Source of the DNA: an uncultured Sphingomonadales bacterium
GTDB lineage: Bacteria; Pseudomonadota; Alphaproteobacteria; Sphingomonadales; Sphingomonadaceae
DNA length: 37,031 nucleotides
Direction: 5' to 3'
NCBI GenBank assembly: GCA_937870585.1
Contig: CALMZE010000132.1
Location: 1 to 37,031 of the forward strand
This document shows positions 4,547 through 30,650 of the stretch, piece after piece (within the stretch, counting starts at the first letter, position 1; each line of letters starts with the position of its first letter). Made by a program: the position numbers and the translations under genes. The notes beneath the pieces are model-generated. The model did no database searches and was not told the origin of the DNA. It saw only the letters and a list, made by a program, of their open reading frames with translations.

Positions 4547-6766
4547 GTGGACAAGACGCCTGAAACCATTGAGGAGTATCGCGCCGCGCTGGCTCTGGCG
4601 GATCGCCGTTTTGCGCGTGCGGAAAAGGCGCGGGAAGCGGCGGAACATTTCTTGGAGGTGCGCGGGCGCATCCTCGCCAAGGTCAATGCCGAGCTCAAGA
4701 AGCGCGAAAGCGATCTTCTGGAACAGGCCAAGCAGGATGCCCAAAAGCTGCTTCTGGCGCAGGAACTGGCCGAAGTGGCGACCGTCCATGTTTCTGACAC
4801 GCGCGAACTGATCGGATCGCGCAATCTGGCAACGGTGCTGGGGTGGCGCGGGCCGGTCAATGATCTTGATCAGTTGCTGACGATGATCCATCCGCTCGAA
4901 GGGCCTGCTTCGCGCGACTATCTGGAAGGCGAAATTCACGGCCCGAGCGAATCGAGCCGCGACGTGCGCTTCCTCGATCAATCGGGCAAAACGCGCTGGC
5001 TGCGCTGGACCATCCAGTCCAGCACGCAGGATCGGGGCAGCTATCATGGCGCCGTCCGAGACATTACCCGCGAGCGCCACGCCGAACGCAAAGTGCGGAC
5101 TTCAGACGCATTGCGCGCAAGGCAGTTGCGCAAACTGGAGCGTGTGTCCAACGAGTTGCGCGCGCGCGTGGCGGACCTCGATCAGCTCAGTACGTCGCTC
5201 GAAATCTCCCGCAACCAGGCGATCCGCGCCGATCAGGCCAAATCGCGCTTCCTCGCGATGATGAGCCACGACATTCGCACCCCGATGAACGCCATTCTGG
5301 CAACGCTGGACCTGATCGCCGAATCAGACCTTGCACCCGAGCAAAGCCGCCTGATCGAACTGGCGCGCACCAGTGGCGAACAAATGCTGTTCCTGCTGGC
5401 AGACATATTGGAAGTGGCGCGGTCAGACGGCTGGACCTTTGATCTGGAGGAAGGGCGCGTCTGCCTGTCCGACTATCTTCACACCATCGTTGATGCCTGG
5501 CGTCCGCTGGCGGATCGGCACGGACTGTCGCTCGCGCTCGGGCTGGAAAGCGGGTTGCCGCAATGCATCCGCACCGATGGCGCGCGGCTGCGGCAATTGC
5601 TCGACAATCTGATCAGCAATGCCATCAAATATACGCCTTCGGGCAGTGTCCGGGTTCATGCGCGACTGGCGGTTCTCAACCATAGAAAAGCGCTGCGTAT
5701 CACTGTGTCTGATACCGGGCCGGGCATCCCCCCGGAGCAGCGCGAGCGCCTATTCGAAGACGGGAAGCGCCTGATCCGCGACCCGCTGGAAAGCGGACCG
5801 CAAGGCACCGGGCTGGGGCTGGGCATCTGCAAGCGGATTGCCAAGGCGATGAATGCTGAAATCGGTCTGGACAGCGTGGTGGGCCAAGGCAGCAATTTCT
5901 GGGTGACCCTGCCGTGTCAGGAATGGCGGCAGGATGAAGAGGCGCAAGCGGGTGCGGGCACATCACCGGAGCGGGCCATCCTGATCGACGGCAGGCCACC
6001 CCATTTGCTGGTGGCCGAAGATGTGGAGACCAATCGCATCGTCATGGCCGCGCTGCTCGAACAGCTCCACTGCACCTCCAAAATGGCGGAAGACGGGCTG
6101 GGCGCCTTACAGCTCGCCGAAGTGGAGCGGTTTGATGCGATCCTGATGGACGTCTCGATGCCTGTGATGGACGGGATGGAAGCCACGCGGCGCATCCGCG
6201 CACGCGGCGGGCTCAATGCTGGCATTCCTATCATCGCCGTCACCGCCTTCGCCGCCGAGGATGAAAAGGCTGCCATTTTGAATGTGGGCATGGATCATGT
6301 GCTCTCCAAGCCAGTGAGGCTGGCCAATATGCGCCGCATTCTGGAGGTGGCACTGCTGGGCAAGACCGGCGAACCGGCCCGCCCACAGGAAGGCATTATT
6401 CCCGAATTCCGCAGCCGCTCATCAATCAATGAAACTGCGCTGCGCCAGCAGTTGCTGGCCGTGCCTGAAGCCGCACGCAGCAAGCTGGCAGCAACGATCC
6501 AGGCCGATCTGGAAAAATGGCTCACCCGCTTCATTGACGCGATGGAAGCCGGTGAGAGCGATGCGGTTGCCACCGCACACCATGCGCTCAAGGGCATCTG
6601 CGCCGGGTTCGGGGCAACGGCGTTGGCCGAGGATCTGGCGACCGCGCGTGAAGGTTTCGCCGTCGGCGAAATGCCCTATCGCGAGCATCTCTCCAGCCTG
6701 CTGGAGCGCACCTGTTCCGATATCTGCGCGACCTGCGCCAGCCCGGACCGGCGACAGGCTGCGTAG
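4547..6766 (+). CDS. Soluble hybrid histidine kinase (PAS-HisKA-HATPase-REC-Hpt)
   Basis: This is a 739-aa phosphorelay protein when started at GTG 4547 (a TTG at 4520 is less likely). In order it has an N-terminal coiled coil (ADRRFARAEKAREAAEHFLE), a PAS-like domain at about 80-175, a coiled coil, then HisKA with MMSHDIRTPMN (H241). The ATPase domain follows with NLISNAIKY, DTGPGIP and GTGLGLGI, then a receiver with MDVSMPVMDGME (D535), and an Hpt with HHALKG (H679). There is no membrane segment or signal peptide, so it should sense a cytoplasmic signal or partner. The N-terminal coiled coil resembles that of kinases partnered with H-NOX or NosP/FIST sensors (from memory). It is the only kinase beside an H-NOX gene and a SypG/LuxO-like regulator in this window, so I infer it phosphorylates that regulator through its Hpt. 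It begins 42 bp after the CoA ligase. Confidence 0.85.
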   Translation: MDKTPETIEEYRAALALADRRFARAEKAREAAEHFLEVRGRILAKVNAELKKRESDLLEQAKQDAQKLLLAQELAEVATVHVSDTRELIGSRNLATVLGWRGPVNDLDQLLTMIHPLEGPASRDYLEGEIHGPSESSRDVRFLDQSGKTRWLRWTIQSSTQDRGSYHGAVRDITRERHAERKVRTSDALRARQLRKLERVSNELRARVADLDQLSTSLEISRNQAIRADQAKSRFLAMMSHDIRTPMNAILATLDLIAESDLAPEQSRLIELARTSGEQMLFLLADILEVARSDGWTFDLEEGRVCLSDYLHTIVDAWRPLADRHGLSLALGLESGLPQCIRTDGARLRQLLDNLISNAIKYTPSGSVRVHARLAVLNHRKALRITVSDTGPGIPPEQRERLFEDGKRLIRDPLESGPQGTGLGLGICKRIAKAMNAEIGLDSVVGQGSNFWVTLPCQEWRQDEEAQAGAGTSPERAILIDGRPPHLLVAEDVETNRIVMAALLEQLHCTSKMAEDGLGALQLAEVERFDAILMDVSMPVMDGMEATRRIRARGGLNAGIPIIAVTAFAAEDEKAAILNVGMDHVLSKPVRLANMRRILEVALLGKTGEPARPQEGIIPEFRSRSSINETALRQQLLAVPEAARSKLAATIQADLEKWLTRFIDAMEAGESDAVATAHHALKGICAGFGATALAEDLATAREGFAVGEMPYREHLSSLLERTCSDICATCASPDRRQAA

Positions 6767-6807
6767 GGTATGACGACTTTCGGCCGGAGCACGGATGAGC
6801 GCGGCCC

Positions 6808-8277
6808 TCAATAGGCCCCTCGCCCCGAAATCACGGCAGGCACTGTCTTTGCAATGAGCTTCAGGTCGGTCACCAAAGACCGGCTCGCCAGATAGTCAAT
6901 GTCCAGACGGGCCTGTTCTTCGAACGGAATTTCGGCCCGCCCCGAAACCTGCCAGGTGCAGGTCAGCCCCGGCGCGCCACGCAGACGGCCGCGCACATCA
7001 TCATCATAGGCGAGCACTTCGTTTGGCAATGCCGGGCGCGGACCGACAATCGACATGTCGCCCTTCAAAACGTTGAACAGTTGCGGCAGTTCATCGAGCG
7101 ACAAGCGCCGCAGCCAGCGACCAACGCGGGTGATGCGGGGATCCTGCTTCATCTTGAAGCAGACGCCATCGCGCTCGCTTTGCGCCCTGATCGCGGCAAG
7201 ACGTGCTTCAGCATCCACCGCCATGGAGCGGAACTTGAACATCCGGAACGGCTTGCCATCCGCGCCAATCCGGGTCTGGCTAAAGAGAACTGGCCCGCGA
7301 TCATCGAGCATGATGAACACGCACAAAGCGGCAAGCAGCGGCCCGAGCAGGATCAGGGCGAGCAGCGCAATGCCCAGATCGAGCGAACGCTTGGAAGCCG
7401 CTGCATATTGCTCCGCCTTGCCGCGATCAACCCAGGCTTGCACGGACGCGCGCGCGAGAAAGGCGGCATTGCCCAGCAAATAGCGGCGCGCCAGCCGACG
7501 TGGTTCCTGCGCCAGACGCCACACCCATTCCATTCCTAATGCGCGTACCGTCTTGGGCGCGCGCGGAATGCTGCCAGAGTAATAATCGAACAAGCCGCCA
7601 ACCCCCGTTAGTACCGGGACATTGATCCGGTCTCGATGGCGTGCGATCCACTTTTCCTGATGCGGCACGCCCATCCCGACCAGCAAGATGCCCGCGCCCG
7701 ATGCGTTGATGGCAGCGATCAGCTCCTCATCCGTTTCGCTGCCCAAATAGCCATGATGCGCACCAGCAATGGTCAGGCCGGGGCATTGCTCCAGCATTGC
7801 CTTGGCGGCCTTGCGGGCGATTCCGGGCTGACTGCCGAGCAGGAAGACCGGCACCTCCTGCGCAGCGGCTTCGCGGCAGAGCCAGGGGAAAAGATCGGTG
7901 CCGTTCAGATTTTCGCCAAGCGATCGGCCTGAAAAGAACGACGCGATGCGCAGGCCGGAACCATCGGGCAGAAGCGCATCGGCGCGCGCCAGTGCCGGTC
8001 CATAGCCCGGATCGGTGCGCAATGTGTTGATGCAATGCGCGTTGATGAAGTGGATGATGGTGCGATCCCCGCGCGCCGCGCGCGCCACCACCGCCTCTGC
8101 CGCCTCTTCCAGCGTGGCATTGACGAGCGGCAGACCGAACAAGGTGGTCGCAGGCTTTTCATCGAGCGCATCAGCCGGACAAAGGCTGAATCGACCGCGA
8201 TCAAACCGGAGACGAGTACCCTGCGTGGCAGCGGGCCTGCGGGCAGCGGAATTCTTGGTCATCAGCATCTGGGTCAT
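6808..8277 (-). CDS. Fusion: WecG/TagA/CpsF glycosyltransferase + WcaJ-type sugar-phosphate transferase
   Basis: This 489-aa protein joins two exopolysaccharide enzymes. Residues about 45-250 are a GT26 domain with HFINAHCINTLRTDP, LLPDGSGLRIAS, GAHHGYLG, LLVGMGVPHQEKW and GVGGLFDYYSG. After a hydrophobic segment (LGIALLALILLGPLLAAL) comes the polyprenyl-phosphate sugar-1-phosphate transferase core: PVLFSQTRIG, FRMFKFRSM, LSLDELPQLFNVLKGDMSI, VGPRPALP and PGLTCTWQVSGR. It should start repeat-unit assembly at the inner membrane and may add the second sugar. ATG 8277 is chosen because GGAG lies seven bases upstream; a TTG at 8313 would be upstream of or at the transcription start. A sigma54 promoter at 8329-8314 points to it. 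It converges with the kinase gene. Confidence 0.9.
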   Translation of the reverse strand: MTQMLMTKNSAARRPAATQGTRLRFDRGRFSLCPADALDEKPATTLFGLPLVNATLEEAAEAVVARAARGDRTIIHFINAHCINTLRTDPGYGPALARADALLPDGSGLRIASFFSGRSLGENLNGTDLFPWLCREAAAQEVPVFLLGSQPGIARKAAKAMLEQCPGLTIAGAHHGYLGSETDEELIAAINASGAGILLVGMGVPHQEKWIARHRDRINVPVLTGVGGLFDYYSGSIPRAPKTVRALGMEWVWRLAQEPRRLARRYLLGNAAFLARASVQAWVDRGKAEQYAAASKRSLDLGIALLALILLGPLLAALCVFIMLDDRGPVLFSQTRIGADGKPFRMFKFRSMAVDAEARLAAIRAQSERDGVCFKMKQDPRITRVGRWLRRLSLDELPQLFNVLKGDMSIVGPRPALPNEVLAYDDDVRGRLRGAPGLTCTWQVSGRAEIPFEEQARLDIDYLASRSLVTDLKLIAKTVPAVISGRGAY

Positions 8278-8313
8278 GGCGCACTCCGAAGGTTGGGAAT
8301 TTGCCGGAGCCAA

Positions 8314-8329
8314 AGCACAGGGCGTGCCA
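8314..8329 (-). promoter_or_regulatory. Sigma54 promoter for the GT26/WcaJ fusion gene
   Basis: On the minus strand the sequence is TGGCACG-CCCT-GTGCT. The -24 GG (8328-8327) and -12 GC (8316-8315) are exactly 12 bp apart. Transcription would start near 8303, about 26 nt before ATG 8277. The -12 half is slightly off consensus (GTGCT for TTGCW). Confidence 0.78.
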
Positions 8330-8394
8330 GATCAGATTTCTCGCGGGAGACTGCGGGCTTCACCTCTGCCCATCGCTGCGCCGCGTCCGTCCTA

Positions 8395-8453
8395 TTTGCA
8401 GCCCGCAAAGCCCTGCATTGCAAAATGCAAAGCGCCACGTCGCATTCCGCAAC
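8395..8453. promoter_or_regulatory. Array of three activator sites (TTGC-N5-GCAA), 22-bp period
   Basis: Three imperfect palindromes start at 8395 (TTTGC-AGCCC-GCAAA), 8417 (ATTGC-AAAAT-GCAAA) and 8439 (GTCGC-ATTCC-GCAAC). They are exactly 22 bp apart, about two helical turns. They lie about 67 bp upstream of the leftward sigma54 promoter and 55 bp upstream of the rightward one, the usual position for enhancer-binding-protein sites. The same motif recurs at 16992-17085. The natural candidate to bind them is the sigma54 regulator encoded at 17708. Confidence 0.72.
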
Positions 8454-8506
8454 CGAACCGGTTGGTTCGCGCCCCGCTTTGCCTGAAATTCGCTGAATTC
8501 CGGGGT

Positions 8507-8522
8507 TGGCACGAGCCTTGCT
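8507..8522 (+). promoter_or_regulatory. Sigma54 promoter for the flippase-glycosyltransferase operon
   Basis: TGGCACG-AGCC-TTGCT is a near-perfect -24/-12 element (GG at 8508-8509, GC at 8520-8521, 12 bp apart). The predicted start is near 8533, 18 nt before ATG 8551. It diverges from the sigma54 promoter at 8314-8329 and shares the site array between them. Confidence 0.88.
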
Positions 8523-8550
8523 TGTGAAGCTGCAAACGTAAGCAACAGGA

Positions 8551-9843
8551 ATGCGCCTGCCCATGCAAAACAGACTTCGCCGCCTTATCGGTCATGGACC
8601 GCTTGCCCTGGGCAAGGGGTTGATGGCCTATGGTCTGGCGGAACTCTCTGTTCGCGTGGTGCGGCTGGTGACGGTCATCCTCATCGCGCGGCAATTGTCG
8701 CCAGAGATTGTTGGCGTGGCCGCGCTGTCGCTCACGGTGTTCGAACTGGTGCGCGTGCTGGCCAATGTGGGCATCGGGCAGCGGATCATCGCTGCAGACG
8801 CCGCGCATCTGGATGCCACCTGCAACACGGCGCATCGTCTGTTCTGGCTGTGGTGCGGGGGCGTCGCTCTGGTGCAGTTAGGCGTGGCAGGCGTGCTGTG
8901 GCTCGGCTTTGATCAGCCGCTTGCCGCACAAATGCTCGCTGTGCTCGCGCTCGTCTATCTCTTCATGCCCGGCGGGCTTGTCTCCTGCTATCTGCTGATG
9001 CGCGAAGGCCGGGCGGCGACCACCGCGCGCACCGTCGCCACACAGACGATTGCGGACCATATCCTCTCTGCCGCGCTGCTGCTGATCTGGCAGAGCCCCT
9101 GGTCGATCATCCTCCCTAAATTGCTGACAGCCCCGATCTGGCTGGTGCTGACCCGTCGTGCCCGCCCGTGGCAGCCGGCCGCTGCTGCCGGGATGGTGCC
9201 CATCATGGCCCTGTTGCGTTTCGGCCTTCCGGTGCTTGCCACCGAGATGATGGCGGCGCTCCGCGTCCAGTTAGACAAGCTGATCATTGCCGCCAGTTTT
9301 GGTGTGACGACGCTTGGCACATGGTTCTTCGCCTTCAATGCCGGGATCGGCATCGCGTCCTCGCTGATCACCGCATTCGGTACGCTTGCCTTTCCGGCAC
9401 TCTGCGCCAGCGATGGCACGGATGCGCGCGCGCGGCTCAAAATGGTCGCGACCATGGGCCTGATGATTTTCGTGCCGATGGTTCTGGCACAATCGCTGCT
9501 GGCCCCGCTTTATGTGCCTGTCATTTTCGGCGCGCACTGGGCCCACGCCATTCCGCTGATCGCTGCGCTGTGTCTGGCCGGCATTCCCATGATCTGCGCC
9601 ACCATCACCACGGCCTGGCTGCGCGCCAGCGGGCGACCGGGTGTGGATGCCATGGCGGCACTCGCGGCAACGCTTGCTTCACTGGCCGGGCTGTGGCTCG
9701 GCTGCCAGTCAGGCGCGCCACTTCATGCCGCTGCTGGCTGGGTGGCCGGGACTGCGCTGATCGCTCTACCTTTTGCCGCCTTCACGCTGTGGCGCGCTTT
9801 CTCGCCCTCTTCTTCCCCCGTCCTCAAAGAGGCCCTTGCATGA
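8551..9843 (+). CDS. Polysaccharide flippase (Wzx-like, MOP superfamily)
   Basis: This 430-aa polytopic inner-membrane protein has about 12 hydrophobic segments spread over its length and is typical of oligosaccharide flippases. Near the N-terminus MAYGLAELSVRVVRLVTVIL and ARQLSPEIVGVAAL match the Wzx/PST start, and the central MMAALRVQLDKLIIAASFG is the usual mid-protein motif. It should move lipid-linked repeat units to the periplasm. It is the first gene after a sigma54 promoter. ATG 8551 has an AGGA directly before it, closer than normal; ATG 8563 is an alternative. Its stop overlaps the next start (ATGA at 9840-9843), implying translational coupling. Confidence 0.88.
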   Translation: MRLPMQNRLRRLIGHGPLALGKGLMAYGLAELSVRVVRLVTVILIARQLSPEIVGVAALSLTVFELVRVLANVGIGQRIIAADAAHLDATCNTAHRLFWLWCGGVALVQLGVAGVLWLGFDQPLAAQMLAVLALVYLFMPGGLVSCYLLMREGRAATTARTVATQTIADHILSAALLLIWQSPWSIILPKLLTAPIWLVLTRRARPWQPAAAAGMVPIMALLRFGLPVLATEMMAALRVQLDKLIIAASFGVTTLGTWFFAFNAGIGIASSLITAFGTLAFPALCASDGTDARARLKMVATMGLMIFVPMVLAQSLLAPLYVPVIFGAHWAHAIPLIAALCLAGIPMICATITTAWLRASGRPGVDAMAALAATLASLAGLWLGCQSGAPLHAAAGWVAGTALIALPFAAFTLWRAFSPSSSPVLKEALA

Positions 9844-10769
9844 CCCCGCCTGCTATTTCCGTGATCATTCCGGTCCATAATGCCACCCGCACTCTGGCTG
9901 CCACCGTGCAATCGGTGCTGGCGCAGAGCTTCACCAACTTCGAACTCGTTCTGATCGATGATGGCTCCACCGATGACAGCCTGTCTGTGATGCTCGATCT
10001 CGCCATGGCCGATGCGCGCATCCATGTGCTCGCCCAGTCAAACAAGGGCGTCGCTGCCACCCGCAATCTGGGTGTGGAGAGCAGCAGTGCGCCGCTCATC
10101 GCCTTTCTGGATGCCGATGATCTCTGGCACAAAGAGAAGCTCGCCCGCCATGTCGCCTTCCACAAGGCGGATGCAGATGTGGACGTCAGCTATGCGCGCA
10201 TCGCCTTCATCGATCCCAAGGCAGAGCATGGCCGCGGCGCGCGCACAACCTCGTCCATTGAACGCGGTGTGCTGACCCTCCAGCAGATTCTTGCCGAAAA
10301 TCCGGTCTGCACCATGTCCAACATGGTGGTGACGCGGGCCTGTTTCGATCTGGTCGGGCCGTTTCTGGCTGATATGTCGTTCGCCGAAGATCAGGAGTGG
10401 CTGGCCCGCGCGGCGGATCGCGGCTTCGTGATTGAAGGGCTGGATGAGGTCCTGGTGGATTACCGGCTCAGCCATGACGGCCTGTCTGTCAATCTGGAGC
10501 GGATGCACGCCGGATGGCAGCATCTCGCGTCACTCTATCGCCTGCCCGCCGAGCTGCGCGCTGCCGAAGCCGTCTATTGCCGCTACCTTGCCCGCCGCGC
10601 GCTGCGTTCTGGCGCCCCGGCCGCCCGTGCCCGCGATTGGGCGTGGAAGGGCATGAAACTCGATGCCGCAGCCTTCCTGTCCGATGCGAGACGCGGCTGG
10701 ATGACCCTGCTCAGCGCCCTCATCGCTCCCCTTCTGCCCCGTGCCGCGCGCCTGCGCGTTTTTGCCTGA
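9840..10769 (+). CDS. Family 2 glycosyltransferase
   Basis: This 309-aa GT-A enzyme has an N-terminal ISVIIPVHNATRTL, VLIDDGSTDDS and FLDADDLWHKEKLARH (the metal-binding DxD region), then FAEDQEWLARAADRGF, the acceptor-side ED motif. It adds a sugar to the growing lipid-linked repeat unit on the cytoplasmic face. The start overlaps the flippase stop by four bases. It is paralogous to the next gene (same domain, same motifs, similar length), which suggests a tandem duplication with later change of acceptor. Donor and acceptor sugars cannot be predicted. Confidence 0.9.
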   Translation: MTPPAISVIIPVHNATRTLAATVQSVLAQSFTNFELVLIDDGSTDDSLSVMLDLAMADARIHVLAQSNKGVAATRNLGVESSSAPLIAFLDADDLWHKEKLARHVAFHKADADVDVSYARIAFIDPKAEHGRGARTTSSIERGVLTLQQILAENPVCTMSNMVVTRACFDLVGPFLADMSFAEDQEWLARAADRGFVIEGLDEVLVDYRLSHDGLSVNLERMHAGWQHLASLYRLPAELRAAEAVYCRYLARRALRSGAPAARARDWAWKGMKLDAAAFLSDARRGWMTLLSALIAPLLPRAARLRVFA

Positions 10770-10793
10770 CCTATTTCCCCAAGGAGACCAACC

Positions 10794-11786
10794 ATGACCA
10801 CGCGCCGCGTATCCGTCATTATGCCCGTTTACAATGTCCGCACCTATGTGGCCGAAGCGGTGCAATCGGTGCTCGATCAGAGCTTTGCCGATTTCGAACT
10901 GCTGGTGATCGACGATGGCAGCACCGATGAAAGCATCTCAATTGTCCGCACGTTCAAGGATCCGCGCATCCGCGTGATCGCGCAGGTCAATCGCGGCTTG
11001 GCTGGTGCCCGCAACACCGGCATTGCCCATGCGCGCGGCGACTATATCGCGTTGCTCGATTCGGATGATCGCTGGCTGAAGGACAAGCTCACCCTCCACG
11101 TCATCCACCTCGATACCAATCCGGATGTCGGCGTGTCCTATTCCGGATCACGGCTGATTGATGCGGCCGGTGAGCCGTTGCGTCAGGCGCAGCGCCCCCG
11201 GCTGGAGCAGGTGCGCGCAGAGGATATCTTTTGTCGGAACCCGGTTGGCAATGGCTCGGCGGCGGTCATCCGTCGCAGCGTGCTCGATCAGGTGGCCTTC
11301 GCGCACCCGGTGGAACGGGAGCGGACCTGCTGGTTCGATGAGAGCTTCCGCCAGTCCGAAGACATTGAACTCTGGATGCGCCTTGCGCTGGCGGCACATT
11401 GCCGTTTTGACGGGATCGAGCCCCTGCTCACCGAATATCGCATCGTGGCGGGCGGCCTGTCCGCCAATGTCACGCGCCAGTTTGAAAGCTGGCTCGCCAT
11501 GTTTGACAAGGTGCGCGCCATCGATCCGGCCTTTGCCGCGCGGCACGGTGCGCGGGCGCGGGCTTACCAATTGCGTTACCTCGCCCGCCGTTCGGTGCAG
11601 ATGGGCGATGGCAGCTTTGCCCTGATGCTGGTGCGCGAGGCGTTCCAGTCGAGCCTGAAGCCGCTCTTTGAAGAGCCCGTGAAGACGCTCACCACCTGCG
11701 TAGCCGCGCTCATCGCCCGCGTGGTGCGCCCGGAAACGCTGGTGGCGCTCGCTGGCCGCTGGACCGGCGGAAAGGTCGTCGCATGA
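10794..11786 (+). CDS. Family 2 glycosyltransferase (paralogue of the previous gene)
   Basis: This 330-aa GT2 enzyme has VSVIMPVYNVRTYV, LLVIDDGSTDES, GLAGARNTGIAHARGDY and LLDSDDRWLKDKL (DxD region), plus FRQSEDIELWMRLALAA at about 190. The residue order and spacing parallel the preceding gene. A strong AAGGAGA site precedes ATG 10794 by a normal distance, in a 24-bp gap. The gene end overlaps the next start by four bases (ATGA). It probably adds another residue of the same repeat unit. Confidence 0.9.
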   Translation: MTTRRVSVIMPVYNVRTYVAEAVQSVLDQSFADFELLVIDDGSTDESISIVRTFKDPRIRVIAQVNRGLAGARNTGIAHARGDYIALLDSDDRWLKDKLTLHVIHLDTNPDVGVSYSGSRLIDAAGEPLRQAQRPRLEQVRAEDIFCRNPVGNGSAAVIRRSVLDQVAFAHPVERERTCWFDESFRQSEDIELWMRLALAAHCRFDGIEPLLTEYRIVAGGLSANVTRQFESWLAMFDKVRAIDPAFAARHGARARAYQLRYLARRSVQMGDGSFALMLVREAFQSSLKPLFEEPVKTLTTCVAALIARVVRPETLVALAGRWTGGKVVA

Positions 11787-12829
11787 GCCGCATCAAACTC
11801 GTCAATCTGCTCGATGATTTCACGCTGGGCGGCGTCACCAAGGGGCTGGCCATTTTCGATTCGGCCCCCGTCCGGGAAATCGCCGATTGCGAGACGCTGC
11901 CCATCAACAGCGAGGCGATGATTGCGCCTGCGCTCGATGCGGACATCATCATTACCCACTTCCCGCCCAACTGGATGCGGCTGGTGTTTCTTGGGTTGCT
12001 GCGCGCGCGCAATCCCAAAGCGACGCTGATTCATGTTGAACACAGCTATTCGGGTGACTGGGAAGACCAGCATGTGCCGCACCGCGCGCGCTTTCGCCTG
12101 ATGATGAAATGGGCGCTGTCCATGGTCGATCACGTCGTCTGCGTTTCAAACCGTCAGGCGCACTGGTTGATGGAGGGTGACATGGTTGAGCCCCATCGGC
12201 TCGATGTGATCTATCCCTCCTCCCAACCCAAGGGTCTGGATGCCATTCCTCTCCCTGAATTCGGGCAAGATCGCCCGCTGGTGGTGGGGGCCTATGGCCG
12301 TTATGCGCCCGCCAAGGGGTTTGATCGCCTGATCAATGCGTTCAAGCGACTCGGCGCAGACGATAATCTGGAGCTGCTGCTCGGCGGTTTTGGTCCCGAG
12401 GAAGAGGCATTGACGGCACAGGCCGCCGATTGCCCGCGCATCCGCTTTGCCGGGAAGATCAGCGATCTGCCCGTCTATCTGGCGCAGTGCGATGTCATTG
12501 CCGTGCCCTCCCGCTTTGAAGCCTATGGGCAGGTTGCCAACGAAGCGCGTGAGGCGGGGCGCCCCATTCTGGTTTCGACAGCGGGCGGTCTGCCCGAACA
12601 GGTTGGTTCCGCCGGGCTCGTCGTCGATTGTGCAGATCCCGATGCGCTGCTGGCCGCACTTCAGTGCCTGCCGGTCATGCCGTTGGCGCACATGGCGCAA
12701 GCCGGACGGGCAGCGACGCAGAATTGCGGCGCAGAGCGGGCCGAGGCCTGGGCGCGCCTGATCCGCACCTTCAAACCGCGTTCCCCAGAACGGAAGTCCC
12801 TTCGGGTCGCCACGCGCCAGCCTGCCTGA
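11783..12829 (+). CDS. Family 4 (GT-B) glycosyltransferase
   Basis: This 348-aa protein has the GT4 pattern: an early glycine-rich FTLGGVTKGLA, LIHVEHSYSGDWE, the domain linker VVGAYGRYAPAKGFDRLINA, LLLGGFGPEEE, RIRFAGKISDLPVYLAQCDV and PSRFEAYGQVANEAREAGRP (the EX7E-type donor-binding region). It is the last gene of the sigma54-driven flippase operon, coupled to the previous gene through a four-base overlap and followed by a terminator-like hairpin. Confidence 0.88.
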   Translation: MSRIKLVNLLDDFTLGGVTKGLAIFDSAPVREIADCETLPINSEAMIAPALDADIIITHFPPNWMRLVFLGLLRARNPKATLIHVEHSYSGDWEDQHVPHRARFRLMMKWALSMVDHVVCVSNRQAHWLMEGDMVEPHRLDVIYPSSQPKGLDAIPLPEFGQDRPLVVGAYGRYAPAKGFDRLINAFKRLGADDNLELLLGGFGPEEEALTAQAADCPRIRFAGKISDLPVYLAQCDVIAVPSRFEAYGQVANEAREAGRPILVSTAGGLPEQVGSAGLVVDCADPDALLAALQCLPVMPLAHMAQAGRAATQNCGAERAEAWARLIRTFKPRSPERKSLRVATRQPA

Positions 12830-12855
12830 GCGCGCCCGCTTCCGTTCAACCCTGT

Positions 12856-12905
12856 CAGCCCCGTCGTGCCCGGTTCGTCTCCTGCACGGCGGGGCTGATT
12901 TGTGT
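12856..12905 (+). terminator. Probable terminator of the flippase/glycosyltransferase operon
   Basis: CAGCCCCGTCGTGC (12856-12869) pairs with GCACGGCGGGGCTG (12884-12897) apart from one mismatch, around a 14-nt loop. It is followed by a moderately T-rich ATTTGTGTAT. It lies 27 bases after the glycosyltransferase stop. Confidence 0.6.
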
Positions 12906-12951
12906 ATAGCTTGCTGCGATGCTTGGGAGACGACGATGGCTCCGCCCGCAT

Positions 12952-13029
12952 CCGTTCGTCCTGAGAAGCCGTTGAATTCGGAGTGCAGCGAAGGCTGAAG
13001 CGGCATATCGAAGGACACCCTTCGATATG
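12952..13029. repeat. Degenerate family A repeat with a short perfect hairpin
   Basis: The block starts like the other repeats (CCGTTCGTCCTGAG) but then diverges. It ends in a perfect 11-bp stem, CATATCGAAGG (13004-13014) with CCTTCGATATG (13019-13029), around ACAC. It lies between convergent operons (stops at 12829 and 13052), where it could help end transcription from both sides. Confidence 0.65.
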
Positions 13030-13051
13030 AGCTTTCGCATTCGCTCAATCT

Positions 13052-14365
13052 CTACTCAGCGCAAACGGTGTGGGTCCGAGTCTCATCGACACTCATAGGC
13101 TCGGCCGTCACCTTCCGAAGCCCCACCCCGATCAGCACCAGAGCGGGCCAGCAGAGATAGGTGAGCACCTCCAGATTTTCGCCAAAGCTGTAGAGCGCAT
13201 AGACCAAAGCCATAGCGAGCGCGGTGCGGCCCGCCCGGTCGCGCATCGCAGCCTTGATGCAAGCGAGCACTGTGGCGGCCATGGGCAAAGCAAGCGACAA
13301 GAGCCCCGCAAACCCCTTCACGAACAGCAGGCCATACCAGCTGTGATGGCTGCCAATCGGCATATATTCCACCAGATGCGGGCCGCGTTCAACAATGCCA
13401 TGGCCGAACCACCAGGCTTCATTCTGCCAGCGTTCGATGGCGATGCGGCCCAGTGTCGCGCGGACACGCGTCGAGTCAGCGCGCGCTCCGGCAAAATCGG
13501 CCTGCGCCTTTTCGGCAAAGGCGATCAGCGCGGGTGCAAACCAGCTGCCCAGCACCAGCACCGGAACCCCCGCAAACCATGTCCCTGCCCGGCCAAGGCG
13601 CGAGGCCCCCCAGGCAAGCGGCCAGATCACTGCCAGCGCCACGAGAGCCAGCCGCGATTGGGAGAGGAGCGCCACCGCAAGCCCGGCCGCAATGCCGATG
13701 ATCTTCCAGCGCAGGTCTTTCTCTTCAAGCGCACAGATCAGATGGATGACCGCAATCATCCCCGCAGCGGGAGACCAGGGCGCATAGAATTGCCAGCGCG
13801 GCGTCCCCACACCCGGCTCCAGCGTGTAGAGCACGGCGGCGAAATATTCATCGCCCGATCCGCCCAGCACCTTGAGCGGGGAGACCCAGAGCGTTTCTGG
13901 CAGGCCGATAAAGGGCGCGGCGAGGAAGAGAGGCAGCAGGATCAGTGTCTGTTTGCCGAGTTTGCAGACCGCGCGGTAAATCACTTCGTCCCGGATCGGC
14001 AGCGCGGCTCCCGCGAGCGGAAAGAGCGCAATCAGCGCCCAGCCCTTTGCCCAGCCAACCGCAGACTTGATCGTCTGCGCCGTGCCCAGGCTGAAATTGG
14101 CATGGCCGAGCAGAAGGACGACCAGCATCGCTGCCATCCCGGCCAACCACAGCTTGATGGTGAAACCGATGGCGACACCACGCTCCTCCGGCGGCAGAGC
14201 AGGCCCGAAATACCAGCTGCGCACCACCAGCACCGCCAGCGTCCACCCCAGAACAGGGCCTGCCATATAGAGGCCCCCGACCAGCCAGAGGATCCAGCTG
14301 GCCGTGATCGTTCCGGCGATCAGGCGTTCGGGAAGAATTTGCGGATGATCGGTTGACGCAGCCAT
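13052..14365 (-). CDS. O-antigen ligase/polymerase-family membrane protein (Wzy-like)
   Basis: This 437-aa protein has about 11-12 membrane segments and a long periplasmic loop at about 290-345 ending in SHHSWYGLLFVKGFAG, the His-containing signature of the Wzy_C/WaaL family. It should polymerise or ligate polysaccharide repeat units at the periplasmic face. Downstream of an export protein and a chain-length protein, polymerase is the better guess. Its ATG overlaps the end of the chain-length gene by 46 bp, so the two are probably translationally coupled. Confidence 0.82.
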   Translation of the reverse strand: MAASTDHPQILPERLIAGTITASWILWLVGGLYMAGPVLGWTLAVLVVRSWYFGPALPPEERGVAIGFTIKLWLAGMAAMLVVLLLGHANFSLGTAQTIKSAVGWAKGWALIALFPLAGAALPIRDEVIYRAVCKLGKQTLILLPLFLAAPFIGLPETLWVSPLKVLGGSGDEYFAAVLYTLEPGVGTPRWQFYAPWSPAAGMIAVIHLICALEEKDLRWKIIGIAAGLAVALLSQSRLALVALAVIWPLAWGASRLGRAGTWFAGVPVLVLGSWFAPALIAFAEKAQADFAGARADSTRVRATLGRIAIERWQNEAWWFGHGIVERGPHLVEYMPIGSHHSWYGLLFVKGFAGLLSLALPMAATVLACIKAAMRDRAGRTALAMALVYALYSFGENLEVLTYLCWPALVLIGVGLRKVTAEPMSVDETRTHTVCAE

Positions 14366-15732
14366 ATCAGACCAAATCCGATGAGGAGGAGGATGGAGGC
14401 CGCCACAGCCCCGCCCAGCGCAATCAGCGCAGAGGGGCTGGAGCGGGTGCGCGGTAGCGAGGGTTCTTCAAGCGTCTGCACCAGCGGGTAAGACGCGAAC
14501 GGATCGAGCTTGTTCGTGTCCAGCCGGGCCAGCGCGGAAGAGAAGACCGCTTCAGCCACGCGGTGATCGCGCGTCAGATCAGCGAGGATCGAGGCTTTGC
14601 CCACCAGCTCACCGGCCTTGCCCTGTTGGCGCGAAAGATCGCCCCGAATTTCGGACAGCGCCGCGCCTGAGCCTGCCCGCTTCACATCGGCCACGATCAT
14701 CCCCTCCATCAGCGAGGATCGCCCGTCCGACACAGAGAGGTCAACCGTCTTCATCAGCGCGCCTTCCGACAAGCCGGTCAGTTCACGGCCCCTTTTTGCG
14801 AGCGCATGGCGCAGCGCATCACGTTCGCCGCCAGCCTGCGCCATTTCGGCATGGGCCTCACCCAAGGTCGCGGACTTTTGCTCGGCATCGGCGTCAAGCG
14901 CGGCATAGCGTTCGACAAGCCTCTGGAAAACCGGATCGGACCTCAGCCGCAGTGTGGCGTTCGCGCTCCCCATGCCCGCGCCAAGCGTGCCTGAGTAACG
15001 GCGCGTTTCCGCCGCCTGCTGGCGCAGTGCCGTGCGTGCTTCGCGCTCGCGTTCCCGCAGCGCATCGATATTGGCGATGCGCGTGTTGAACTGGTCGAGC
15101 GAGACAAGGCCGTTCGCCGCCTGAAATCGGATCAGCTTCTGCTGCGCATCACGCACCTTGGCTTCCAGCTCTTTCAGATGCCGCGCATCAGACACTTCGC
15201 GCACGGCGGCTTCATCGGCGCGCAGCCGGTCGAGCTGCTTGAGGAACGCCGCGCGGAGTGCCGTGGCCCGCGCCCGCGCCTGCGCTGGAGTGCCGCCGCT
15301 CAACTGCACTTCGATCAGATTGGTCTGATCGGTCAGCTTGACGATGGGATCGGGAAAGCCATTCTCATCCTCTCCCACCGTGCGCGCTGCTTGCCGCATG
15401 GTCACATCGGCCATCAGCAGGCGCTTGTAATTCTCGGTCGGGCTCAGTGTGGTGCTGGAAAAGGCCGAAGAGGCGGAGGATTGCGCCTGGCCGATGCTCT
15501 CCACATTCATCGAACTGCCCACGCCAGAGCCGGGCAGGATCAGCGTGAAGCTGCTGGTGTAGCGTGCCGGAGCCAGCGCCAGATATGCCCCGGTCAGCAG
15601 CCAGATTGCAGCAAGCGAGGGGGCTATGGCCGCCACATAGCGCTTGTAGCGGCCCGGCGTCGGCAGTCCGTCTCGAACCGAATACCAGACGCGCAGCAGG
15701 AAGCGGGGCTTTTCGATAACCTGATGCAGCAT
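14320..15732 (-). CDS. Polysaccharide chain-length/co-polymerase protein (Wzz/GumC-like)
   Basis: This 470-aa protein has a first membrane segment at about 33-53 (AIAPSLAAIWLLTGAYLALA) followed by the Wzz-type TSSFTLILPGSGVG. It then has a long charged coiled-coil region at about 170-390 (AREVSD, REREREARTALRQQAAETRR and similar), a proline-rich SLPRTRSSPS and a second membrane segment near 440. There is no C-terminal Walker-A kinase domain, so it is a kinase-less PCP protein. It starts one base after the export lipoprotein stop and is the second gene of the sigma54-driven leftward operon. Confidence 0.85.
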   Translation of the reverse strand: MLHQVIEKPRFLLRVWYSVRDGLPTPGRYKRYVAAIAPSLAAIWLLTGAYLALAPARYTSSFTLILPGSGVGSSMNVESIGQAQSSASSAFSSTTLSPTENYKRLLMADVTMRQAARTVGEDENGFPDPIVKLTDQTNLIEVQLSGGTPAQARARATALRAAFLKQLDRLRADEAAVREVSDARHLKELEAKVRDAQQKLIRFQAANGLVSLDQFNTRIANIDALREREREARTALRQQAAETRRYSGTLGAGMGSANATLRLRSDPVFQRLVERYAALDADAEQKSATLGEAHAEMAQAGGERDALRHALAKRGRELTGLSEGALMKTVDLSVSDGRSSLMEGMIVADVKRAGSGAALSEIRGDLSRQQGKAGELVGKASILADLTRDHRVAEAVFSSALARLDTNKLDPFASYPLVQTLEEPSLPRTRSSPSALIALGGAVAASILLLIGFGLIWLRQPIIRKFFPNA

Positions 15733-15733
15733 C

Positions 15734-16912
15734 TTACTGGCCCATATTCTTGAGGAGCACGGCAGGCGTGATGGTCTCTCCGATCACGCTCACCACATCG
15801 CGCAGGTTCATCGCGGCGGAATCATAGCAGGCGATGGCATCGCCTGGCATCAGCCACGGATCGACTGCATCGCGATTGGCTTCACGCACCAGCTTCTCCA
15901 CCGAGCGGGAGGTGACCACCGATTGCCCGTTCACCGGATTACGCGACATCAGCACGCCACTGCGTCCGGCATTCATCGCGGAGCCACCCACGCAATTGGC
16001 CGTCACCAGCGCCTGGCTGAAGCGCGTGCCATAGGGCAGGCTGGTCGAATCCTTGCCGATGGCAGACATGGCATTGCTCGGGGCCGGGCGCGACAGGTTG
16101 GAGATGAAGACGCGAATGCCTGGCGGCGTGATCTGCGATGGGCGTACCAGCGCGTCTTTCAGGCACCCGGTCGAAGCCACCACGATCCGGTCTCCTGCGG
16201 TCACGGGCACATCGTCCGCTGCAAAGCCGCCCAGCGCACCACTCAAGTCAAGCCGCGCATATTGGCCGCCGCGGAACAGATAGATGGCCGACGGGTCTGC
16301 ATCAGGCCGGATGCCGCCCGCAGCCCGCAAGGCGGTGCTGACGCTGCGGCCTACATTCAGATCCCCCGAGACGATGTTGGACAGGTTGAGGTTGCGCACC
16401 TCGGCCTGCCGCTCGCCCACGCGCACCGTGCCGCCTTCGAACACGGCCCCGGCAACGGAAACGGGCACGCCCGCCAGTTCGACTTGCTCTAGCCGAACGC
16501 CGTTGGAGAGAGGACGAATCAGCCGGGCCGCGATCAGGTGCGCAGTTATGCTGCGCTCAACTTCAGAGAGCATATGCCCGGCCGCCTCGATCCGCAGGCT
16601 ACCAGCCAGCTGGATCATCCCGTCAGCCGCGATGACATAGCTGCCCGTCAGCAAGCTCTTGTCTCCGGCAACGGTCAGCCGCAGCCGGTCACCCGCCGCC
16701 AGCATATCGGGCGCAAGCGCGAAACTCGCCGACGGCACCTCGCTCCATCCTGCCAGTGCTGGCAGCGTGGCGTGCGGGCGGCACGCGTTCTGGTCTGGCA
16801 AGGCCTGCTGCACGGCATAGGCGCTGCCAGGCGCATTGCGCGGCGTCGGCATGGTCGCACAGGCCGAGAGCAGCAGGGAAGACAGGAGCAATAGGGAAGA
16901 CTTGCGAGACAT
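15734..16912 (-). CDS. Outer-membrane polysaccharide export lipoprotein (OPX/Wza family)
   Basis: This 392-aa lipoprotein has signal peptide MSRKSSLLLLSSLLLSAC with lipobox LSAC, so it is anchored in the outer membrane. A poly-export domain follows (MLAAGDRLRLTVAGDKSLLTG, ADGMIQLAGSLRI) and then SLBB-like repeats (VELAGVPVSVAGAVFEGGTV, TAGDRIVVASTGCL). It forms the export channel for the polysaccharide. ATG 16912 is chosen because it starts the signal peptide and lies about 23 nt after the predicted sigma54 transcription start; the longer frame reading upstream to 17056 crosses the promoter. It is first gene of the operon that continues into the chain-length and Wzy-like genes. Confidence 0.9.
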   Translation of the reverse strand: MSRKSSLLLLSSLLLSACATMPTPRNAPGSAYAVQQALPDQNACRPHATLPALAGWSEVPSASFALAPDMLAAGDRLRLTVAGDKSLLTGSYVIAADGMIQLAGSLRIEAAGHMLSEVERSITAHLIAARLIRPLSNGVRLEQVELAGVPVSVAGAVFEGGTVRVGERQAEVRNLNLSNIVSGDLNVGRSVSTALRAAGGIRPDADPSAIYLFRGGQYARLDLSGALGGFAADDVPVTAGDRIVVASTGCLKDALVRPSQITPPGIRVFISNLSRPAPSNAMSAIGKDSTSLPYGTRFSQALVTANCVGGSAMNAGRSGVLMSRNPVNGQSVVTSRSVEKLVREANRDAVDPWLMPGDAIACYDSAAMNLRDVVSVIGETITPAVLLKNMGQ

Positions 16913-16945
16913 GGACCAACACCTCGATTGAGTTGCCCCGCCGTT

Positions 16946-16961
16946 CGCAAGTTGCGTGCCA
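16946..16961 (-). promoter_or_regulatory. Sigma54 promoter for the export operon
   Basis: On the minus strand this reads TGGCACG-CAAC-TTGCG with GG (16960-16959) and GC (16948-16947) 12 bp apart. The predicted start is near 16935, leaving a leader of about 23 nt before ATG 16912. It is paired with the opposite promoter at 17128-17143. Confidence 0.85.
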
Positions 16962-16991
16962 ATTGCCCGCAACAAACGGAATCTCGCCATT

Positions 16992-17085
16992 TTCGCATTT
17001 TGCATGGCTCTCGCAAAACCACCGTTTGCGAAATGCAAAGACTTTGCGTTGCACAATGCAAAGACGGATCATTGCAGAGTGCGAA
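16992..17085. promoter_or_regulatory. Array of four activator sites (TTGC-N5-GCAA), 23-bp period
   Basis: Sites start at 17025 (TTTGC-GAAAT-GCAAA), 17048 (GTTGC-ACAAT-GCAAA) and 17071 (ATTGC-AGAGT-GCGAA), spaced exactly 23 bp. A fourth, reverse-facing copy starts at 16992 (TTCGC-ATTTT-GCATG), 33 bp away. The centre sequence AAAT recurs in the strongest copies. The array lies between two diverging sigma54 promoters, as at 8395-8453. The extra inverted repeat TCGCAAA/TTTGCGA (17011-17031) overlaps it. Confidence 0.75.
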
Positions 17086-17127
17086 TCCCAAGAGCGAGGA
17101 CCACACAAAGCCTTGGAAATCCGCAGT

Positions 17128-17143
17128 TGGCACGATTGCTGCT
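17128..17143 (+). promoter_or_regulatory. Sigma54 promoter for the H-NOX/response-regulator operon
   Basis: TGGCACG-ATTG-CTGCT has GG at 17129-17130 and GC at 17141-17142, spaced 12 bp. The predicted start is near 17154, about 22 nt before ATG 17176. Because the operon encodes a sigma54 activator, the promoter implies positive autoregulation. Confidence 0.82.
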
Positions 17144-17175
17144 TGCACATCCGCCATATGGACAGGGATTCGATC

Positions 17176-17715
17176 ATGAAGGGTGTGATTTTCACCGAGC
17201 TGATTCGCTTCATGGAGGTGCAGTCTGCGGCTTTTGCCGATGAAGTTGTGCGCGATGCGCAGCTTCCCAATGACGGGGCCTATACCAGCGTTGGCAGCTA
17301 TCCAACCGAGCAGGCGCTGGCGTTGATCCATGCCGCCTCTCGCCTGTCAGGCCAGAGCGAGGAAGAATTGTGCCGTCGGTTTGGCAACTTCCTGTTCTCC
17401 CGTTTTCTGATCCTCTTTCCGCACATCACCAGCGCCTACACAACAGCGGAGGCATTGCTGGGCCATGTCGGCACGCACATCCATGATGAAGTCTGCGTGC
17501 TCTACCCCGATTCCCGCCCACCGCAGATCACCACGCGGCAAGACGGCACCCGCACCATCATGACCTACCAGTCGCACCGCCCGATGGCCGTGATCGCCTT
17601 CGGGCTGATCCAGGGCTGCATGGCGCATTATGGCGATCCGCGCAGCATCAGCTGGAGTGCCAGCAGCCGAGGACGCGCGGCAACCTTCATCCTCTCGGAG
17701 ACCGCCCATGGCTGA
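17176..17715 (+). CDS. H-NOX (haem nitric oxide-binding) sensor
   Basis: This stand-alone haem sensor of 179 aa begins MKGVIF, the usual H-NOX start, which is why ATG 17176 is preferred over ATG 17158. The haem ligand is H103 in HIHDEV. The Pro that distorts the haem is in RPPQI (115-116), and the haem-propionate motif YxSxR is Y131-S133-R135. The FGLIQG that follows aligns without gaps to the canonical family. The residue equivalent to the O2-stabilising distal Tyr140 of the Thermoanaerobacter protein is Ile140, which predicts an NO sensor that rejects O2. H-NOX proteins usually act by inhibiting a partner histidine kinase; the soluble hybrid kinase at 4547 is the candidate. Its 3' end overlaps the response-regulator start by eight bases. 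Confidence 0.92.
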   Translation: MKGVIFTELIRFMEVQSAAFADEVVRDAQLPNDGAYTSVGSYPTEQALALIHAASRLSGQSEEELCRRFGNFLFSRFLILFPHITSAYTTAEALLGHVGTHIHDEVCVLYPDSRPPQITTRQDGTRTIMTYQSHRPMAVIAFGLIQGCMAHYGDPRSISWSASSRGRAATFILSETAHG

Positions 17716-19129
17716 TCCCATGATCCTGATCGTCGAAGATATTGCCTCTCTGGCACTCGCCTATTCCGCCCAATTGGAAGCGGCTGGTTTTGCCTGCCAG
17801 ACGGTCAGCACCGGCACCGAGGCGGTGGATCTGCTTTCGCGCCCGCTTAACGCCATCGGGGCAGTGCTGCTCGATTTGCAATTGCCTGACATGGATGGTC
17901 TGAGCCTGATGCGCGCCCACCCCGATCTCGTTGAGCGGCATCCCTTCATCGTCGCCACGGCAGACGGCTCGATTGCCCGCGCAATCGAGGCAATGCGGCT
18001 GGGTGCCTTCGACTTTCTGGTGAAACCGCTCGCGGCCCACCGGCTTGTCACGATCATGAAGAGCGCGCTGGAAACCATGCCGCAGCATGGCGTTGACCAA
18101 TGCACGCCGGTGCAGCCAAGCTCGGCTCAAGGCTATATGGGCTTTATCGGCATGTCGCCGCCGATGCAGACGGTCTATCGTCAGATCGCCAACGTCGCCC
18201 GCTCGCGCGCGACCGTGTTCATCACCGGCGAAAGTGGCACCGGCAAGGAGGTGTGCGCCGAATCGATCCACAAGGCGAGCCCGCGCGCGGCCCGCCCATT
18301 CATCGCCATCAATTGTGGGGCGATTCCTGAAGATCTGCTTGAATCCGAATTGTTCGGCCATTTGAAAGGTTCTTTCACCGGGGCTGTGTCAGACCGGATT
18401 GGCGCGGTACAGGCGGCACATGGCGGCACGCTATTCCTTGACGAAATCTGCGAGATGGAGCCCAAATTGCAGGTTAAGCTGCTGCGCTTCCTCCAGACTG
18501 GAACGATACAGCGCGTCGGCTCTGCGCGCACAGAGGATGTGGATGTGCGCATCATCTGTGCGACCAACCGCAACCCGGAAGCCGAAGTGGCGGCAGGCCG
18601 TTTCAGGGAAGATCTCTATTACCGTCTGGCTGTGGTCCCGCTGGAGATGCCGCCCTTGCGCGCGCGTGGCGTGGACATTGCACTGTTGGCGAACGCGTTC
18701 CTCAAACGCTATGGTGAGGAGGAAGGCAAAGCGTTTAACCCCATTACGCCCGTCGTGATTCAGGCGTTGGGCCAGCACCTCTGGCCGGGCAATGTGCGCG
18801 AGTTGCAGAATCTTATCCGCCGCGCGGCTGTCTTGCACTCCGGACCAGATCTGCCGCTGGATGTGATCCCGCGCGCTGCGCTGCCTGCCGTATCAGAACC
18901 CGTCATGGTTCCGAAGGCCATGGTGGCCCTGCCTCCCTCACAGCCGAGCATGGCCTTGCTCAACAGCCTGACCGGGCTGACACTGGAAGAAATTGAACGC
19001 ATCGCCATCGAAAACGCCATTGATCAGGCGGGCGGCAGCTTGCCCGTTGCTGCGCGGATGCTGGGGGTCAGCCCCTCTACATTGTATCGCAAGCGCGAGC
19101 GATGGACGGCACAGTCAAGCGTCGCCTGA
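17708..19129 (+). CDS. Sigma54-dependent response regulator (SypG/LuxO-like)
   Basis: This 473-aa enhancer-binding protein has an N-terminal receiver (E10/D11, phosphoacceptor D56 in LLDLQLPDMDG, T84, K106). The AAA+ domain follows with Walker A GESGTGKE (174-181), the sigma54-contact loop GSFTGA (221-226, Ser instead of the usual Ala), Walker B TLFLDE (241-246) and arginine-finger region FREDLYYRLAV. A Fis-type HTH, AARMLGVSPSTLYRKRER, closes it. The receiver start (ILIVEDIASLALAYSAQL) looks like LuxO and SypG, regulators fed by Hpt proteins. It is translationally coupled to the H-NOX gene. It is the obvious binder of the TTGC-N5-GCAA arrays and activator of the four sigma54 promoters (inference). 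Confidence 0.92.
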   Translation: MADPMILIVEDIASLALAYSAQLEAAGFACQTVSTGTEAVDLLSRPLNAIGAVLLDLQLPDMDGLSLMRAHPDLVERHPFIVATADGSIARAIEAMRLGAFDFLVKPLAAHRLVTIMKSALETMPQHGVDQCTPVQPSSAQGYMGFIGMSPPMQTVYRQIANVARSRATVFITGESGTGKEVCAESIHKASPRAARPFIAINCGAIPEDLLESELFGHLKGSFTGAVSDRIGAVQAAHGGTLFLDEICEMEPKLQVKLLRFLQTGTIQRVGSARTEDVDVRIICATNRNPEAEVAAGRFREDLYYRLAVVPLEMPPLRARGVDIALLANAFLKRYGEEEGKAFNPITPVVIQALGQHLWPGNVRELQNLIRRAAVLHSGPDLPLDVIPRAALPAVSEPVMVPKAMVALPPSQPSMALLNSLTGLTLEEIERIAIENAIDQAGGSLPVAARMLGVSPSTLYRKRERWTAQSSVA

Positions 19130-19708: not shown

Positions 19709-19824
19709 AACTCGTCACACCCTTTTCAAAGGTCCGGCTTGTTAACCAATTTTGGCCGGCACCGATTTCAGTCTGGCTGCGCAAATTCACATCAAATTTA
19801 CGAAGTGCTCATACTAATGTCCGC

Positions 19825-21393: not shown

Positions 21394-21409
21394 CGAAACG
21401 AGATTTGAT

Positions 21410-28674: not shown

Positions 28675-28690
28675 GGAACTTACCTCCACA

Positions 28691-28781
28691 CCGTTCGCCC
28701 TGAGTTTGTCGAAGGGCTGCCCTTCTTCGAAAACCATGGCGCACAGAAAAGACAGTGCTTCGACAGGCTCAGCACGAACGG
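28691..28781. repeat. Inverted pair of REP-like elements (family A)
   Basis: The left copy CCGTTCGCCCTGAGTTTGTC begins at 28691; the inverted partner (CTTCGACAGGCTCAGCACGA...) ends at 28781. It fills most of the 129-bp gap between the BKACE and CoA-ligase genes of the leftward operon. Confidence 0.85.
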
Positions 28782-30645: not shown

Positions 30646-30650
30646 GCTTG

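Follow-up and report, generated by a model that had tools for sequence, protein, structure and literature searches.

A candidate nitric oxide-responsive phosphorelay within an exopolysaccharide locus of a sphingomonad

We analyzed a 37,031-nucleotide stretch of DNA from an uncultured Sphingomonadales bacterium (contig CALMZE010000132.1 of assembly GCA_937870585.1; hereafter the window), which is one whole contig of a draft genome that is 96% complete. Judged from its genes, the island at positions 4547 to 19129 is likely to be a self-contained phosphorelay that responds to nitric oxide (NO) and switches the exopolysaccharide (EPS) locus in which it lies. The island encodes, in order, a soluble hybrid histidine kinase, an initiating sugar transferase, a Wzx-type flippase, three glycosyltransferases, Wzy-, Wzz- and Wza-like proteins, an H-NOX protein and a sigma54 activator, so the Wzx/Wzy EPS genes are placed between the kinase at one end and H-NOX and the activator at the other. 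A preliminary description of this DNA had proposed that the three regulatory genes form one circuit, and this proposal is supported here by linkage, co-occurrence, natural rearrangement and loss, promoter sites and a partner helix on the kinase. What we observe are the parts, their linkage and co-occurrence, the sites, the rearrangements and one loss.

The H-NOX gene (17176..17715, forward strand) encodes a protein with the HNOB fold (86 bits in Pfam, cut-off 25.5) that has the proximal haem ligand His103 and the YxSxR motif (Y131QSHR), and it is the single HNOB match in its own draft genome. Its closest solved structures are bacterial H-NOX proteins, some of them named haem NO-binding, and it is a probable NO sensor. 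H-NOX proteins that respond to redox state have been reported (PMC8738867), and Cys66, Cys107 and Cys148 are present in the island protein. Sensing of O2, or of redox state through these cysteines, is nevertheless quite unlikely, given the retained His103 and YxSxR and the nature of the best solved relatives.

The activator gene (17708..19129, forward strand) begins with an ATG at 17708 that overlaps the H-NOX gene by exactly 8 bp, the coupling that the preliminary description had reported. Its 473-amino-acid product consists of a receiver domain with D56, a sigma54 AAA+ domain and a Fis helix-turn-helix. LuxO is its best NCBIfam model (NF041946, 525 bits; next NtrC, 377) and supplies its best PDB chain (5ep0, 413 bits, ahead of other LuxO chains at 333 and the next family at 281), and the protein is 50% identical to its best match in a Vibrio sagamiensis genome. 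With LuxO ranking best among sigma54 activators and a LuxO-type site at the putative target promoters, it can be called LuxO/SypG-like in the broader sense. These scores also bear on an alternative reading in which a PrsK/PrsR-type pair governs a PEP-CTERM/exosortase EPS locus and H-NOX is a bystander, as suggested by the PEP-CTERM protein (19190-19708) and PrsT-like TPR protein (19825-21393) encoded next door. The activator reaches 360 bits on the PrsR model (TIGR02915, cut-off 502.6) against 525 on LuxO, and PEP-CTERM and PrsT queries had no match in the relatives' regions among the matches listed; with such scores and unconserved neighbors, we rejected this reading as extremely improbable.

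The kinase gene (4547..6766, forward strand) has a GTG start and encodes an N-terminal helix (residues ~9-60), a weak PAS domain, HisKA with H241, HATPase_c, a receiver domain with D535 and a weak Hpt domain with H679. Pfam recognizes HisKA, HATPase and REC and the active residues are present, as in hybrid kinases of the HqsK/HahK kind. H241, D535 and H679 fall in conserved columns of an alignment of the window kinase with 35 relatives picked by eye from 71 matching frames (duplicates, partial frames, second kinases and loci L011, L163 and L166 were left out). The column of the Hpt histidine is common to L153 and L176, where Pfam does see an Hpt domain (L176 was aligned as its duplicate, L150). 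Thus, a membrane-free, Hpt-bearing hybrid kinase does lie in the EPS locus as first described, and both residues named for phosphotransfer, H679 and D56, are where they had been placed.

The three regulatory genes keep together across the family. At 11 loci from named genomes (L008-L018), H-NOX is 46-58% identical to that of the window; in eight of these it is adjoined by the window's EPS genes, whose order is the same up to where the contig stops, and in the other three hybrid kinases lie close before H-NOX and the activator (with a glycosyltransferase between in L018). Because 10-kb flanks were too short to reach the kinase, it was searched for in the 10 named genomes (L010 and L011 are from one genome), and in the six with a long enough contig the best kinase match of the genome is at the island end beyond the sugar transferase. 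We also compared 32 regions of 20 kb from the family (two of them shifted), scoring the kinase as present on a tblastn match at 1e-8. All 11 genes are together in 26 of these, 24 of which have the window's order; kinase, H-NOX and activator occur together in 29 regions, H-NOX and kinase in 31, and H-NOX and activator in 30. The regions cover 32 of 38 H-NOX genomes, the remainder being the window's own, one considered separately below (G230) and four with short contigs (G103, G118, G179 and G354). Unlinking of the kinase gene in relatives, which the preliminary description had named as the outcome that would count against it, is therefore not the pattern found.

The search for co-occurrence that the preliminary description had suggested gave a similar picture. 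H-NOX matches of any strength occur in 52 of 397 family genomes, and matches of at least 39% identity in 38. The activator group, drawn from up to three scored candidates per genome, comprises 36 genomes among the matches listed (at least 52% identity and at least 452 bits, followed by a whole match at 42% and 328 bits), and 35 of these have H-NOX (Fisher p 2e-45, genomes treated as independent). The wzy marker is present in 32 genomes, 30 of them with H-NOX (Fisher p 2e-35, on the same assumption); the two without are G004, which is 84% complete and where the contig ends, and G223. H-NOX lacks a whole activator in G058, and in G150 and G230, which have activator fragments. In a class-wide sample of 385 genomes, the wzy marker was found in one, the window's own. 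Six of 12 other genomes of the same genus carry a different H-NOX (~26% identical; L002-L007), so the island is patchy within the genus.

Natural rearrangements separate the parts in ways that bear on which of them H-NOX acts upon. In the window, the kinase is ~10.4 kb from hnoX rather than next to it, while in some relatives the two genes are adjacent. In G254 and G042, H-NOX adjoins the kinase, and the activator remains behind the export gene at the other end; G036 has the order H-NOX, kinase, separate small Hpt frame, activator, and a detached Hpt frame is also seen in G042. G360, the relative with the closest activator (70%), has its island in two parts ~150 kb apart, both of which are retained, with the kinase still beside the sugar transferase. 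One genome, G223, has kept the EPS genes and the activator, but a genome search for H-NOX gave no match, and none to the kinase, H-NOX or the helix was found in the 60 kb surrounding the locus. Its activator (L178, from 17522) has D56 changed to A and T84 to D, with the GAFTGA loop of the AAA+ domain intact. Both residues are retained in the other 41 rows of the activator alignment, for which 46 loci and the window were offered and an activator frame was obtained from 41 loci, with three species represented twice. LuxO-type sites are present in both G223 gaps; between the sugar transferase and wzx, sigma54 sites point in both directions, and the activator gap has the export-side site only, with no forward site before the activator. 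Absence of sensor and kinase together with a dead phospho-site is expected if the two proteins are the main input of the activator, which in G223 may perhaps now be constitutive. A second natural loss was not found: in the genus of G223, wzy occurs in one of seven genomes, G223 itself. Separately, G230 (L183, from 15210) has a broken H-NOX and an activator remnant in a region lacking EPS genes and any match to the kinase, which we take to be island decay.

These arrangements make it very unlikely that H-NOX acts directly on the neighboring activator while the kinase answers some other signal. H-NOX does abut the activator in most loci, and the co-occurrence in 35 of the 36 listed genomes would fit such a contact; however, in G254 and G042 H-NOX adjoins the kinase, at a distance from the activator, H-NOX and kinase are both absent from the G223 locus, and the partner helix is on the kinase.

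This helix is shared with proteins encoded next to H-NOX far outside the island group. A profile made from residues 8-80 of the island kinases was run on 57 outside H-NOX loci (L019-L075) from many phyla, including two sphingomonad metagenome-assembled genomes. Of 31 kinases encoded beside H-NOX it matched 28, and of six other kinases two. Adjacent frames that lack a kinase core gave 18 matches in 157, and the 930 remaining frames none; a helix protein was present in 51 of the 57 loci (none in L020, L021, L039, L047, L067 or L075). The kinases at Vibrio loci L064 and L065 carry it. Seven of the 20 listed non-kinase matches were run on Pfam, yielding six GGDEF/EAL proteins and one with PAS domains only; the H-NOX-adjacent GGDEF/EAL proteins thus have the N-terminal helix in common with the island kinase, while their output is a cyclic di-GMP (c-di-GMP) enzyme and not a relay. 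Twenty control loci contained six helix frames: island proteins account for those of L093 and L102 (one protein), L098 and L101, and those of L099 and L100 are on contigs where a link to the island is not visible. For the reciprocal comparison, we built a profile from 49 segments outside the island group. Of 169 frames in the window it matched a single one, that of the kinase at 4547 (E=4.6e-6), and among 950 frames from 33 relatives' regions it matched 25, every one the helix protein of the island itself. The island proteins of L143, L156, L168 and L170 escaped it, and the profile is not independent, its segments having been chosen with the sphingomonad profile. By this feature, which emerged from the present analysis and is not an established criterion, the window kinase groups with the H-NOX-adjacent proteins. 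Nothing in NCBIfam scored above cut-off on the helix, which spans ~45 residues and in non-island proteins is close to A-R-x-x-A-E-x-L-L-E-x-K-S-x-E-L-Y-x-x-N.

Both divergent gaps of the island, 8314-8550 and 16913-17175, have oppositely facing predicted sigma54 sites around LuxO-type sites. In the first, conserved -24/-12 sites before the sugar transferase (8314..8329, reverse strand, one mismatch) and before wzx (8507..8522, forward strand, exact) flank an exact LuxO-type activator site, TTGCAAAATGCAA (8418..8430). In the second, sigma54 sites before the export operon (16946..16961, reverse strand, one mismatch) and before H-NOX (17128..17143, forward strand, one mismatch) flank two LuxO-type pattern matches, TTGCGAAATGCAA (17026..17038) and TTGCACAATGCAA (17049..17061), and a weak one with two mismatches (16993..17005). 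The preliminary description had put the sensor and the EPS genes under the same promoter class; this stands for the H-NOX operon and both EPS operons and does not extend to the kinase. Raw counts across the window at up to two mismatches are not above chance, either for sigma54 sites (10, with 10.2 expected) or for LuxO-type sites (5, with 2.5 expected; equalled in 9 of 100 shuffles). The weight of the sites comes instead from their confinement and conservation: at one mismatch or fewer, all four sigma54 matches and all three LuxO-type matches in the window are inside the two gaps.

In the relatives (species duplicates L008, L012 and L016 of the pairs L008/L142, L012/L147 and L016/L150 were excluded, and the window gap was cut at 16912), 24 of 32 export/H-NOX gaps have a forward sigma54 site and 22 a reverse one; the corresponding counts among 30 transferase/wzx gaps are 28 and 27, and the 102 matches in total compare with ~2 expected from letter shuffles. 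LuxO-type sites with at most one mismatch are present in 21 of 32 and 18 of 30 of these gaps, respectively; the 18.5 kb of gaps contain 67 such sites, where ~0.1 would be expected, out of 91 across the full 779 kb of loci. Exact TTGCRWWWTGCAA is found at three places in the window's own genome, two of them in this island. The third (C135:25657) lies close to a small frame and to genes judged RND-like by eye.

From these parts we infer a circuit in which NO would be the ligand of H-NOX, and H-NOX would act on the soluble hybrid kinase, probably via its N-terminal helix. Without NO, phosphate would pass from H241 to D535, then to the kinase's own Hpt histidine, H679, and on to D56 of the activator. 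Once phosphorylated, the activator would bind the LuxO-type sites between the paired divergent sigma54 promoters and turn on both EPS operons as well as its own H-NOX-activator operon. With NO, H-NOX would inhibit the kinase or make it a phosphatase, and EPS would fall.

That NO lowers EPS is the most likely sign of the effect by analogy with Vibrio, where NO-bound H-NOX inhibits its kinase or makes it a phosphatase (PMC6759604) and restrains the syp biofilm (PMC12369376). The same circuit could operate with the opposite sign, NO-bound H-NOX releasing or stimulating the kinase so that NO induces EPS, as the effect of NO-bound H-NOX on biofilm may be positive or negative in different organisms (PMC8738867). 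We regard this as unlikely, because the Vibrio systems are the closest in logic and there NO inhibits the H-NOX-linked kinase.

In Vibrio fischeri, signaling runs from HnoX-HahK through the Hpt of SypF or LuxU to SypG and the syp polysaccharide (PMC12369376, PMC8738867). The island resembles this system in having H-NOX beside a hybrid kinase (adjacent in some relatives), an activator of the same sigma54 type and a polysaccharide output. It differs in that hnoX-hahK form their own operon and HahK depends on an Hpt supplied by SypF or LuxU, while the island is one locus whose kinase has its own Hpt. The H-NOX-HqsK-LuxU-LuxO pathway of Vibrio harveyi and Vibrio parahaemolyticus (PMC6759604) likewise combines H-NOX, a hybrid kinase, an Hpt and a LuxO-type activator; its output is quorum sensing and its Hpt is a separate protein, both unlike the island. 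The activator sites are also of a shared kind, LuxO acting at TTGCAWWWTGCAA and SypG through overlapping sites (PMC10162802).

NO can also reach a soluble hybrid kinase by another route, in which NahK answers the NO sensor NosP. We rejected a NosP/NahK reading of the island, as no FIST/NosP match was found in the genome and the kinase scores 176 of the 400 bits set for the NahK/ErcS model (NF041832).

Several observations weigh against an NO-responsive relay of the form proposed. The activator falls below the cut-off of NF041946 (525 of 800 bits) and so is not a LuxO equivalog, and the PAS (E 0.001) and Hpt (E 4e-4) domains of the window kinase are both below the Pfam curated cut-offs. The 42 bp upstream of the kinase gene gave no sigma54 match, and LuxO-type sites were not found in 11 of 32 export/H-NOX gaps and 12 of 30 transferase/wzx gaps, several of which were shortened by alignment ends. 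H-NOX and activator occur without a wzy match in five genomes (G025, G036, G118, G166 and G179; G118 and G179 are in 660 and 720 contigs). The informative loss, that of G223, is a single genome, in which a genome-wide search gave no kinase match at 1e-40, a threshold that an ATPase-less relative could miss (the best match in G020 is 4e-36). Finally, in 21 of the 35 aligned relatives (type B: L010, L018 and 19 of L148-L170; types were set by eye), the ATPase domain is deleted (12) or degenerate (9), with the helix, PAS, DHp, REC and Hpt retained, so that no autonomous kinase activity is expected there. The ATPase is intact (type A) in 15 of the 36 aligned island kinases, the window's included, with the Hpt a separate frame in two.

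The type B proteins may take phosphate from a neighboring kinase. The DHp histidine is retained in 20 of the 21, and a second kinase-like frame adjoins the type B protein in 19 of 21 regions, being longer than the scaffold in 16 (some are cut at the region end). Three of these second kinases were run on Pfam and have PAS, HisKA and HATPase domains, with Cache or HAMP below cut-off in two; they are presumably placed at the membrane. It is possible, although we put it forward tentatively, that the helix is a portable docking tag through which H-NOX addresses unrelated outputs such as hybrid kinases and GGDEF/EAL proteins, and that in many sphingomonads the tag sits on an ATPase-less scaffold, H-NOX gating a conduit fed by the neighboring kinase.

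The EPS genes themselves form a Wzx/Wzy set. The initiating sugar transferase (6808..8313, reverse strand) joins WecG/TagA/CpsF glycosyltransferase and Bac_transf sugar transferase domains in one protein, as identified by domain profiles, and relatives match this fusion over most of its length. The Wzx-type flippase (8551..9843, forward strand; Pfam and NCBIfam profiles) is followed on the same strand by a GT2 glycosyltransferase at 9840..10769 (start inferred within the open frame 9168-10769, relatives aligning from residue 1 or nearly so) and, by profile match, a second GT2 (10794..11786) and a GT4 glycosyltransferase (11783..12829). On the reverse strand lie a hydrophobic protein without a Pfam match, called Wzy-like from its position and composition (13052..14365), a Wzz/EpsF-like chain-length protein with a weak match (14320..15732; TIGR03017, 45 of 423 bits) and a Wza-like export lipoprotein with a Poly_export domain (15734..16912; start at 16912 inferred). 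A related EPS locus stands beside H-NOX in a gammaproteobacterium of the Thiotrichales (L074, 6634-17286), where an H-NOX-kinase pair occurs twice in tandem, followed by a STAS protein and then OmpA/Poly_export, Wzz- and Wzy-like genes, the wzy being 44% identical to the window's; no activator-sized frame lies between the H-NOX-kinase pairs and the EPS genes.

Elsewhere in the window, the genes adjoining the island at 19190-22930, which include an LbtU-like porin (just below cut-off) in addition to the PEP-CTERM and PrsT-like proteins, had no match in the relatives' regions among the matches listed. Positions 26156-33160 contain CoA-type degradation genes, with BadI/BadH-like enzymes below cut-off and a 3,5-dioxohexanoate:acetyl-CoA acetone transferase above it. 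Positions 1-48 are presumably Illumina adapter sequence remaining at the contig end.

The logic and the parts of the circuit are already known from Vibrio HnoX-HahK-SypG and H-NOX-HqsK-LuxO, while the single-island sphingomonad form, the built-in Hpt and the ATPase-less relay variants appear to be new. In agreement with the preliminary description, which knew of no such sphingomonad circuit, we did not find the single-island form in the open-licence literature, outside which most subscription journals lie. In the papers cited above, H-NOX pathways reach biofilm through genes apart from their targets or through c-di-GMP. In the island, sensor, relay, activator and target operons are in one place. 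The family also supplies natural informative mutants, with a relocated H-NOX, a separate Hpt, or a lost sensor and a dead phospho-site, and the shared helix gives a starting point for learning how H-NOX recognizes very different partners. Together, these make the contact between H-NOX and kinase, and the sign of NO control of polysaccharide, directly testable in sphingomonads, in which NO may decide whether EPS is produced.

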